A stretch of DNA of 64,000 nt, taken from contig JADCGA010000002.1 in the NCBI GenBank assembly GCA_020249265.1, positions 62,001 through 126,000 on the forward strand. Direction: 5' to 3'. Position numbers and translations under genes: made by a program. Source of the DNA: Roseomonas sp. GTDB taxonomy: Bacteria > Pseudomonadota > Alphaproteobacteria > Acetobacterales > Acetobacteraceae. The notes beneath the pieces are model-generated. The model saw only the letters and a list, made by a program, of their open reading frames with translations, had not been told where the DNA came from and searched no databases. Of the stretch, positions 1,723-4,910 are shown piece by piece (position 1 is the first letter of the stretch; every line of letters starts with the position of its first letter).

Positions 1723-2549
1723 GGGGTGAAAAGCGCCTCCTGGGCGGCTTCCCAACTTGCGCGGTCTGGCGCGCAGATCAGTCCGCCGCTAGTCAGATGC
1801 GGGCCGTAATCGCTGCCATCGAAGCGCGCGGAATGGCCGCCGGCTTCGCGGTGAAGCAGCCAGCCCGGCGCATGATCCCAGGGCATCAGCCTGTTATAGA
1901 CCAGCAAATGCGCATGCCCGCCGGCGGCCAGCCGATACTCATGCGCGGCGCAGCGATAGGAAACCGTGGCCGCCAGCCTCGGCAGCCGGCTGGTCACGCG
2001 GGATTTCAGCGGCTCGGGCATATACCCCCAGGAAATCGCGGCCACCATGTCACCCGGCGCGGCGGGCGCGGCCACGCGCAAATCTGCAAAACGGCGCCCT
2101 TCCCCATCCGCGAGCCAAGCCCCCTGCCCGCGTAAGGCTATTGCCGTGTCATCACCCAGCGGGTCATGGATCCAGGCGCCAATGATCTCGCCCCGCCTGA
2201 TCGCTGCCGCCATGCAGCCGAAAAGCGGCACGCCGGCAGCAAAATTCGCCGTGCCATCCACCGGGTCCACCACAAAGGCAAGCTCCGCCTCCGCCAGCCG
2301 CCCCAGCAGAGAGGCATCCGCCGCCGTCGCTTCCTCCCCCACTACCACGCAGCCCGGGAACAGTTTTTCAAGCCCGGCGGTGATCACGCGCTCGGCGGCC
2401 TCATCCGCATCGGTCACCAGATCAAGCGGGCCGGATTTGGCGCGCACTGCATCGGCGCTCAGGCGGCGAAAGCGCGGCAGGATTTCCGCCCGCGATGCCT
2501 CGCGCAGCAGCAACGCCAGATCGGCGGCTTGCGAGGCTGAGATGCTCAT
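1719..2549 (-). CDS. Inositol monophosphatase family protein
   Basis: This 276-residue protein belongs to the Mg-dependent, lithium-sensitive phosphatase family. GEEAT (71-75), DPVDGT (95-100) and WDHAPG (224-229) are the three metal-binding motifs. The substrate cannot be told: the family includes inositol-1-phosphatase (SuhB), histidinol-phosphatase (HisN) and CysQ. The ATG at 2549 overlaps the hflX stop as ATGA and its own stop overlaps the greB start, so it is translated within the hfq-hflX chain. Absence of other his genes nearby gives no support for HisN. Confidence 0.88.
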   Translation of the reverse strand: MSISASQAADLALLLREASRAEILPRFRRLSADAVRAKSGPLDLVTDADEAAERVITAGLEKLFPGCVVVGEEATAADASLLGRLAEAELAFVVDPVDGTANFAAGVPLFGCMAAAIRRGEIIGAWIHDPLGDDTAIALRGQGAWLADGEGRRFADLRVAAPAAPGDMVAAISWGYMPEPLKSRVTSRLPRLAATVSYRCAAHEYRLAAGGHAHLLVYNRLMPWDHAPGWLLHREAGGHSARFDGSDYGPHLTSGGLICAPDRASWEAAQEALFTP

Positions 2550-3868
2550 TTCTGCCCCCGGCTTTCAAACCGCGCCCGATCCATTTGCGAAAGCCGCACC
2601 TTTAGTCGCACCGCATCATCAGCATCCTGGCGTTCCAGCACCTCGCCATGGGCATGCAGCCAGGCGATGGCGGCGCCATCAGAAGGCGGCAGGGCCACGT
2701 CCATCACCACAAGCTGCGCAGAAAGCCGCGCATCAATCGCCGCGCGCAAGGCGGGCAGCCCCTCACCTGTAAGGGCTGATACCGCCACAGCATCGGGGCT
2801 GCGCCGTTCAACGGAATCAATCCCGCCAAGCAGATCAGCCTTGTTCAGCACTTCCACCACGCGGTCCGGCCAAGCCTCATCCAAGGTCGCATCCGCGCCA
2901 TCGGCCATGGCTTCCAAAACGCCCAACACATCAGATCGCTGTGCGGCGCTATCCGGGTGGGCAATGTCGCGCACATGCAAAATCAGATCGGCGGCGGCGA
3001 CTTCTTCCAAAGTGGCGCGGAAGGCTTCGACCAATTGCGTCGGCAGATCGGAAATGAAGCCCACCGTGTCGGAAAGGATCACATTGCGCCCCGATGGCAG
3101 TTTTATGGCGCGCATGGTGGGATCAAGGGTCGCGAATAGCTGATCCTGCGCATAAACCCCCGCACCCGTCAGCGCATTGAACAGCGTTGACTTGCCGGCA
3201 TTGGTATAGCCCACCAGCGCCACCACCGGGTAAGGCACACGTTCGCGCGCGCGCCGATGCAGGCCGCGCGTGCGCCGCACCTGATCCAATTCGCGCTTGA
3301 GCCGCACAATCCGGTCCCCGATCAGCCGCCGGTCAATTTCAATCTGGCTTTCCCCCGGCCCGCCCAGGAAGCCAAAGCCCCCGCGCTGACGTTCAAGGTG
3401 CGTCCAGGACCTGACGAGCCGCGTGCGCTGATATTCCAGATGCGCGAGTTCAACTTGCAAGCTGCCTTCGCGCGTGCGCGCCCTTTCGCCGAAAATCTCC
3501 AAGATCAGCCCGGTGCGATCAATCACCTTGCAGCCCCAGGCGCGTTCCAGATTGCGCTGCTGCACGGGGCTGAGCGCGGCATCCACAATCACCACACCCA
3601 CCTGCTGGTCATGCAGCGCCCGTTTCTCCATCTCCACCTGGCCTTCACCCATCAGGGTGGAAGGCCGCCTTTCGCGGAGCGGATGGATCGCCGAATGGAC
3701 GATGGTCACACCAATGGAAGCCGCAAGCCCTATCGCCTCCGCCAGCCTTGCTTCGGCCGCGCGTTTGCCGCCCGCATCGCCAATGGCGCTGCGCGTGGGC
3801 TTTTCGAAAGGAAGGATGACGGCGGCGCGGGTCGGGCGCCCGGCGCCCGCTTCAGTTTCCGCCTTCAG
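2546..3868 (-). CDS. hflX: Ribosome-associated GTPase HflX, probable CTG start
   Basis: The GTPase core is clear: GYTNAGKST (G1, about 220-228), DTVGF (G3, about 267) and NKAD (G4, about 342), with the HflX glycine loop GGPGESQIE at about 169-177. HflX splits stalled ribosomes. The first ATG/GTG/TTG in frame is a GTG at 3709, but conserved N-terminal sequence (VILPFEKP, then [16 protein letters not shown]) lies upstream in the same frame. That upstream part holds no ATG, GTG or TTG before the in-frame TGA at 3872-3874. A CTG at 3866-3868, six bases after GAGG of GAGGTGA, gives a normal 440-residue protein and overlaps the hfq end by 17 bases. ATT or ATC starts are alternatives. Confidence 0.9.
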
Positions 3869-4166
3869 AAATCACCTCACGCTGCAAGGTCAGGCGCGTT
3901 TCAGAAGCAGGTGCGGCGGCACCAGGGGCCGCCGGCACGCCATCAAACAGCGAAATCGGCGCGCCAGGCATAACGGTGCTGATCGCATGCTTATATACAA
4001 GCTGCGTATGGCCATCGCGGCGCAGCAGCACCGAGAAATTGTCAAACCAGGTAATGATGCCCTGCAACTTCACGCCATTCACCAGAAACACCGTGACCGG
4101 CGTCTTGGATTTGCGAACGTGGTTCAGGAATACATCCTGCACGTTCTGGGACTTTTCAGCGGCCAT
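3852..4166 (-). CDS. hfq: RNA chaperone Hfq
   Basis: This 104-residue protein has a complete Sm fold. Sm1 includes [20 protein letters not shown] and Sm2 includes YKHAIST. It forms a hexameric ring that anneals small RNAs to mRNAs. The C-terminal tail after about residue 75 is Ala/Pro-rich, as in many alphaproteobacteria. It sits between the HAD phosphatase gene (87 bases upstream) and hflX, the usual hfq-hflX order. Its last 17 bases also seem to encode the start of hflX and contain that gene's ribosome binding site, so the two are probably translationally coupled. Confidence 0.97.
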
Positions 4167-4253
4167 GGGACCGGTCCTTCTTTTTGCTGGTCACCGACCA
4201 GACGCGGACCGACGAAAACCATTTCCGGCCGTCGGCATCCTTACAATGCCATG

Positions 4254-4910
4254 TCAGGCTGGTTTGACAAGTGACGAAACTGCAACCGCAAGTGCATGAC
4301 AATCGTCAAAAACCTGATCCGCTCCGGCTGCGGCAATGCCGCCATCATGCGCTCCATCGCCCATCAGCACCGCGCGCACACCAGCGGCGCGCGCTGCCTG
4401 CATATCTAGCGCGGTGTCGCCCACATACCAAATGTCCTGCGCGGGGCTGAAGCCGAGGGATTGTAGCGCCATCAAAATGGGCGCTGGGTCGGGCTTGTCG
4501 GCGGCGGCATCGCCCGCGCCAATCAACGGGCCGAAATGCCGATCCCAGCCGAGGTGCACAGCCTCGGCACGCAGCAATGGCCCTTGCTTATTGGAAACCA
4601 CGCCCATGGGCAGGCGCCCTGCCCCGGCTTCCAGCGCCGCTGTCGCCCCCGGCATCGGCGTCAACACCTGCAAATGGCAGGCGCGTACCTCAGCGTAGAA
4701 GATATCCCGCGCCCTTTCCCATTCCGCACCAAATAATTCCGGGAAGCTTTCACGCAGCGCGCGGCGCACATTGGCCAGCACCTGAGTGCGATCCCAAAGC
4801 GGCAGGCCAAATTCCCGAAAGGCAGCATTCAGCCCGGCCTCAATCGCGGTCCAGCCATCAACCAGCGTATTGTCCCAATCGAACAGGATGGCGCGCGGGG
4901 CTTCCCTCAT
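4254..4910 (-). CDS. HAD-superfamily phosphatase, phosphoglycolate phosphatase-like
   Basis: The 218-residue protein carries the HAD motifs. Motif I is FDWDNTLVD (10-18), with nucleophile Asp11 and acid/base Asp13. Motif II is in VVSNKQGPLL, and motif III/IV is YVGDTALDMQAARAAG. A helical cap between motifs I and II places it with subclass I phosphatases such as Gph. The substrate is not determined by sequence. Its start overlaps the stop of the aminotransferase gene as ATGA. Linkage to the ntr-hfq chain suggests co-transcription, not a shared function. Confidence 0.88.
   Translation of the reverse strand: MREAPRAILFDWDNTLVDGWTAIEAGLNAAFREFGLPLWDRTQVLANVRRALRESFPELFGAEWERARDIFYAEVRACHLQVLTPMPGATAALEAGAGRLPMGVVSNKQGPLLRAEAVHLGWDRHFGPLIGAGDAAADKPDPAPILMALQSLGFSPAQDIWYVGDTALDMQAARAAGVRAVLMGDGAHDGGIAAAGADQVFDDCHALAVAVSSLVKPA

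Follow-up and report, generated by a model that had tools for sequence, protein, structure and literature searches.

A CTG codon inside hfq as the probable start of hflX in much of the Acetobacteraceae

Introduction

CTG start codons are rare in bacteria and are usually seen as isolated oddities. In E. coli, infC begins at AUU and is autoregulated through IF3. The sigR gene of Streptomyces begins at GTC, and its repression by IF3 has been established (PMC5472188). That codon is reported to be conserved within Streptomyces and as standing behind a strong Shine–Dalgarno (SD) sequence (AGGAGGTG) in a two-gene operon, and the gene is said to have been misannotated to an ordinary start codon.

Here, we consider hflX, the gene for a GTPase reported to split 70S ribosomes (PMC4770234), in a genome of Roseomonas sp. 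from which a stretch of 64,000 nucleotides (the window) was analysed. This hflX resembles sigR in its conserved noncanonical start codon behind a strong SD sequence (GAGGTGAT) and in its presumed place in a two-gene operon, although the codon is CTG rather than GTC and hflX is the second gene of its pair, whereas sigR is the first. Repression by IF3 has been demonstrated for sigR and is inferred for hflX, and the conservation reported for sigR is within Streptomyces, compared with 41 of the 97 genera examined for the hflX CTG. With infC, hflX shares a noncanonical start behind an SD sequence (AGGAG in infC), and CTG appears to replace the usual infC codons in some genera; however, infC is regulated by its own product, and HflX is not known to act in the choice of start codons. 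In other Alphaproteobacteria and in E. coli, the same gene lies behind hfq and has a weak start codon, but the TTG found there is an ordinary, annotated start, which the CTG of the Acetobacteraceae is not; moreover, a gap of 75 bases follows hfq in E. coli, with no overlap, unlike the arrangement in the window.

In searches of one open-access library, no report linking hflX to a CTG or other noncanonical start was found among the titles and abstract openings listed. Conserved noncanonical starts in bacteria are already known, and the hflX CTG would be a further one. A CTG start maintained in dozens of genera hardly fits the picture of an isolated oddity, and there is a practical side to it: a gene finder restricted to ATG, GTG and TTG would shorten HflX by 53 residues in this genome.

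The hfq–hflX junction

The features of the junction, in window coordinates, are as follows.

4166-3852, minus strand: hfq, encoding the RNA chaperone Hfq of 104 residues, with its stop codon TGA at 3854-3852 (TIGR02383, 110.3 bits; PF17209, 2.9e-32)
3878-3871, minus strand: SD-like sequence GAGGTGAT, 8 bases, with six bases between its GAGG and the CTG
3874-3872, minus strand: in-frame TGA, the upstream end of the open hflX frame
3868-3866, minus strand: CTG, the start codon assigned to hflX from frame and conservation
3868-2546, minus strand: hflX, encoding the GTPase HflX, of 440 residues when read from the CTG (TIGR03156; PF13167 at residues 40-126; PF16360; PF01926; PF19275)
3709-3707, minus strand: GTG, the first ordinary in-frame start codon of hflX, 53 codons downstream of the CTG and rejected as the start

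Both identifications lie well above the curated cut-offs (110.3 against 61.7 bits for Hfq; 434.3 against 216.75 bits for TIGR03156). The hflX frame is +1 relative to that of hfq; the TGA at 3874-3872 is followed by TTT and then by the CTG, from which the frame stays open to the stop codon at 2548-2546. Counted from the C of the CTG, hfq ends after 17 bases, and it is the codons of the Hfq tail that carry both the SD sequence and the start codon of hflX. The earlier note had described this layout from the sequence of the window alone, and its account proved accurate: no ATG, GTG or TTG occurs in the hflX frame between the TGA and the GTG at 3709 in this genome, the SD-like sequence is well spaced, and the CTG gives a protein of 440 residues from a gene overlapping hfq by 17 bases.

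The hflX stop codon in turn shares bases with the ATG that opens the following gene (ATGA, 2546-2549), so that hflX is overlapped at both of its ends. A GC-rich inverted repeat (3833-3849; seven pairs, loop of three) lies just past the hfq stop codon, within codons 7-12 of hflX. A promoter scan of 2400-4400 found none, and an Rfam scan of the window returned one tRNA and nothing else.

Coding status of the sequence upstream of GTG 3709

If hflX begins at the CTG, then the sequence ahead of the GTG at 3709 should be read as protein. The ratio pN/pS was calculated between two clades of the window genus, in 6 x 14 pairs. It was 0.22 over the 38 codons from an AAVILP motif to just before the GTG, compared with 0.19 downstream of it, whereas the other frames gave 2.1 and 3.1. 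Constraint is weaker in the short linker ahead of the motif, at 0.61 over 8 codons. Judged by this pattern of substitution, the stretch upstream of the GTG is under purifying selection like the remainder of HflX. The impression in the earlier note that the sequence here looks like a normal HflX N-terminus agrees with this ratio and with the GTP-bdg_N domain, which begins at residue 40.

Conservation of the CTG codon

Of 35 genomes of the window genus that were searched, 31 had hflX; the other four (G004, G020, G029 and G031) gave weak matches to other GTPases. In the family Acetobacteraceae, 397 genomes were searched and 379 gave a match at E 1e-100 or better. Junctions were compared in 161 genomes from 98 genera, comprising the 31 of the window genus and, for the others, about one genome per genus, with some genera sampled more. 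In 160 of them hfq lies upstream of hflX; in the last, L118, the sequence stretch ends at the gene. The distance from the end of hfq to the HflX body varies from 15 to 166 bases among the 160. A CTG was counted, as a CTG–SD module, when GAG stood 6-11 bases upstream of it and the CTG itself 8-30 bases before the end of hfq. Ordinary start codons were scored by an identical rule in junctions with and without the module.

All 31 hflX loci of the window genus have the CTG, and in all 20 that were aligned it stands 14 codons ahead of the AAVILP motif. No ordinary start codon follows it in 30 of the 31, the exception (L024) having a GTG just downstream, and 22 of the 31 have no ATG, GTG or TTG in frame anywhere from the upstream stop to the HflX body. 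In eight of the 31 genomes a GTG lies just upstream of the CTG, in the SD region. As a candidate start it was rejected, being unconserved in the genus and, in the genome of the window, cut off by the TGA. The codon immediately 5' of the CTG was likewise discarded because it varies (TTT, TCT, CTC, CCC, ATC, ACC and CCA, among others).

Across the family, a CTG behind an SD-like GAG was found in 90 of 160 junctions. Between the CTG and the HflX body, 75 of these have no ordinary start codon and 15 have one; taking the whole open frame, including the codons upstream of the CTG, 54 of the 90 have none and 36 at least one. Of the 70 junctions that lack the module, an ordinary start codon is present in 62, and eight have neither. 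Five of the eight do carry a CTG, at position -14, -17 or -20 relative to the hfq end, but not the required GAG; two have a CTG only at -4 or later, and one has none. An ordinary start is therefore available in 62/70 junctions without the module versus 15/90 with it, when downstream codons are counted. Taken by genus majority, the CTG is present in 41 of 97 genera (31 without an ordinary codon downstream and 10 with one), an ordinary codon only in 50, and neither in six. Fisher's test of module against ordinary codon gives p 8e-11 with kinship ignored; the per-genus p overstates the case, the sequences being related. The earlier note had proposed the conservation of CTG and SD sequence across the Acetobacteraceae as a check; they are indeed kept in much of the family, but not in the whole of it.

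The position is also constrained. The CTG stands 17 or 20 bases before the end of hfq in 81 of the 90 junctions, although anything from 36 to 183 bases separates it from the HflX body. At least four exact SD bases at a spacing of 5-7 were found in 83 of the 90, a set preselected for an upstream GAG.

Selection on the codon and its Shine–Dalgarno sequence

The same region read in its three frames provides a control. Among 160 genomes, the combination of an SD sequence of at least 4 nt, a spacing of 5-7 and a CTG was found 91 times (42 genera) in the hflX frame, but only 10 (8 genera) and 9 times (6 genera) in the two others. With the spacing fixed at six, 38 genera have CTG as the in-frame codon, and GCG, which ranks second, is found in six.

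The overlap allows the demands of the two genes to be separated, since the T of the CTG is the free third base of an Hfq codon. An aligned site in the Hfq tail, RExxX, was found in 117 of the 160 genomes and is absent from 43; the shifted codon at this site is CTG in 90 of the 117. The Hfq residue has a four-fold codon (P, S, T or A) at 105 of these sites; T occupies the third position in 90 of them, each time followed by G, compared with a T at 285 of 3550 four-fold codons (8.0%) in the rest of hfq. Counted by genus, the third base is T in 41/56. In 13 of the 15 exceptions an ordinary start codon lies further downstream in the frame; the other two (L221 and L248) have none there. The Glu codon that opens the SD sequence is GAG in 88 of the 90 genomes with the CTG at the aligned site and in 19 of the 27 without it, as against 191/342 elsewhere in hfq. 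Taken together, the T bias, the GAG bias and the frame control argue for selection on an RNA signal and not on the Hfq protein alone.

In these alignments, the CTG is conserved more strongly than either chance or the coding function of the overlapping hfq would require; the codon and its SD sequence are maintained, and the frame beyond them is, by the same comparisons, a conserved part of HflX. We consider it very probable, from frame, spacing and conservation, that the CTG at 3868-3866 is the start of hflX. The central proposal of the earlier note, a start at CTG within hfq, thus gains support from conservation, from the bias at the third base in hfq and from purifying selection upstream of the GTG at 3709, and further from lineages in which loss of the CTG is paired with an ordinary start codon.

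Gain and loss among relatives

In a FastTree tree of 148 HflX proteins, 55 of the 144 inner branches are left open. The CTG site occurs in 39 of the 48 rows of the large clade to which the window belongs, as well as in an early pair (L099 and L133) and in further genera. A clade of 28 rows lacks it, and every row of that clade offers one or more TTG or GTG candidates. On the best tree its presence requires 22 changes, many of them on weak forks. A test of independent pairs on well-supported branches, for loss of the CTG against gain of an ordinary start, was not significant (7 pairs, median p 0.25); on average, 3.1 pairs changed in opposite directions, 0.1 in the same direction and 3.8 showed no difference.

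Named genomes, which are not independent of the 160 junctions, were scanned separately. In the best 80 of 399 relatives, 58 have the CTG without a downstream ordinary codon, 10 have both, eight an ordinary codon only and four neither; for two of the last (L353 and L355), the upstream sequence is missing. Neoroseomonas oryzicola, Falsiroseomonas stagni, Siccirubricoccus deserti and Roseococcus thiosulfatophilus have the CTG in a frame free of ordinary codons both before and after it, and Neoroseomonas alkaliterrae has it without an in-frame ordinary start before the HflX body. Two species of Caldovatus have lost the CTG and have a GTG six bases further on.

Two metagenome bins labelled Asaia bogorensis (L309 and L319) carry an HflX 98-99% identical to that of the window; as the other named neighbours are Roseomonas or Neoroseomonas, these labels look wrong. 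A second HflX-like protein, 42-44% identical, was found in at least nine genomes of the window genus (for example, G014:C40:8809, G001:C3:190761 and G007:C1:4851467); none was seen in the genome of the window.

Proposed mechanism and alternatives

We propose that translation of hflX would begin at the CTG, aided by the SD-like sequence, that imperfect pairing of the initiator tRNA with CTG would keep the yield of HflX per hfq–hflX mRNA low, that ribosomes terminating on hfq may supply or assist initiation on hflX and that, given the discrimination of IF3 against CTG-like codons, the output of HflX would probably be sensitive to IF3. To this reading as a whole, which is drawn from sequence comparison, we assign a probability of roughly 0.78. 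Its parts are not equally secure. The low output is probable and the shared mRNA is presumed; CUG initiation complexes are reported to be less stable than those of AUG, GUG and UUG (PMC11497404). The hflX start overlaps the hfq coding sequence at a constrained distance, and a CTG placed so regularly before the hfq stop suggests that terminating ribosomes may help; on this basis, coupling of HflX translation to that of hfq, as put forward in the earlier note, seems somewhat favoured. Folding of 51 junctions gave no sign that the SD sequence is hidden when hfq is not translated: the unpaired fraction was 0.40, versus 0.39 with shuffled flanks, and was lower in 22/51 (p 0.5), and the stretch folds slightly less stably than shuffled sequence (-37.8 versus -39.5, p 0.002). 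For reinitiation, this result counts neither way. For control of hflX by IF3, argued by analogy, we would give even odds; the noncanonical starts of infC described below suggest that discrimination of the IF3 type may extend to hflX.

Three other accounts dispute the start itself. The GTG at 3709 is the earliest ATG, GTG or TTG of the frame, and hflX could begin there with the upstream frame untranslated, but the protein would then lose 53 residues, including the beginning of the GTP-bdg_N domain, and the 38 constrained codons ahead of the GTG would go unread; we regard this as very improbable. Slightly less credit is due to a +1 ribosomal frameshift in the hfq tail, giving an Hfq–HflX fusion. 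The hflX frame is indeed +1 to hfq, and an SD-like sequence precedes the switch point. However, the hfq codon at the crossing point is NCT, whose first base varies (TCT, CCT, ACT or GCT), and from which a slipped tRNA would be predicted not to re-pair on CTG; moreover, hfq has no stop at the point of shift, and a fixed CTG at a spacing of six bases would be left unexplained. Least probable of all is that an assembly or sequencing error removed an ordinary start. The assembly is in 72 contigs, but the same CTG in all 31 loci of the window genus, and in the named isolates N. oryzicola and N. alkaliterrae, speaks strongly against an error, which the earlier note had named as a way in which its claim might fail.

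A more serious competitor, although in our estimate a less likely one, accepts the CTG as the start and denies it meaning: the codon would have arisen by drift and be held in place by the overlap with hfq as a passive compromise. The first base of the CTG is the second base of an hfq codon NCT, so that a change to ATG, GTG or TTG alters an Hfq residue, and there is no silent one-step route to an ordinary start; moreover, where a lineage lacks the CTG, an ordinary codon is often present further downstream in the frame. Against it, the Hfq tail is highly variable in both residues and length, which makes for a weak lock, and escape appears possible, as the changes on the best tree indicate, yet the CTG persists in the 41 genera. 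Weak starts of hflX are also common where this CTG is missing: they occur in other families of Alphaproteobacteria and in E. coli, whose hfq and hflX are separated by a gap. We favour a regulatory role for the CTG start, with the passive lock as a fair rival. Since one family holds relatives with and without the CTG, it offers a clean test of start-codon weakness as regulation, and its value in this respect is increased by infC, which seemingly uses the same class of start.

Apparent weak starts elsewhere: infC and hflX

A rough screen of the genome of the window (543 coding-like open reading frames, 464 kb) found 39 with at least 30 coding-like codons upstream of the first ordinary start, and 11 with a CTG and SD sequence ahead of any ordinary start. 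Among these 11, hflX ranks first, with an SD sequence of 8 bases (5 or fewer in the others) and an upstream coding score of 18.2 (11.0 for the next).

In the same genome, the aligned start of infC is an ATA preceded by AGGAG (L254:1453-1455, C1 ~338001), and the frame ahead of it holds no ordinary codon. Matches to infC were found in 59 genomes of the family, and in the best 30 of these, one per genus, the aligned start codon is ATA in 25, CTG in four and ATC in one. An ordinary codon lies somewhere upstream in frame in 10 of the 30, and an ATG five codons downstream in many, including the genome of the window; because such codons exist, the infC calls rest on alignment and SD position. With that basis, infC in the Acetobacteraceae appears to start at ATA, CTG or ATC. 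A bolder and rather doubtful extension is that hflX and infC form a pair of ribosome factors with shared starts of the kind that IF3 discriminates against (CTG in the one; ATA, CTG or ATC in the other), linked by feedback and with a role for the Hfq tail at the level of RNA. Were this so, both IF3 and HflX would increase whenever IF3 activity fell or 70S ribosomes were in excess, the feedback would tune ribosome splitting to the state of initiation, and the tail motif RExx[PSTA] would be kept partly as the SD sequence and start of hflX in RNA rather than for Hfq.

In other alphaproteobacterial families, 90 genomes had a match to hflX and 48 were examined (within L166-L213). By the rule, 32 have one unambiguous ordinary candidate, 12 are ambiguous and four have none. 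The 32 unambiguous starts are TTG in 21, GTG in six and ATG in five, and the hflX of E. coli K-12 is annotated at TTG (L255:2173); weak starts thus seem to be common for hflX. Two junctions, L206 (family f86) and L193 (family f101), have no clear ordinary hflX start and an in-frame CTG near the end of hfq, and are possible further cases of a CTG start.
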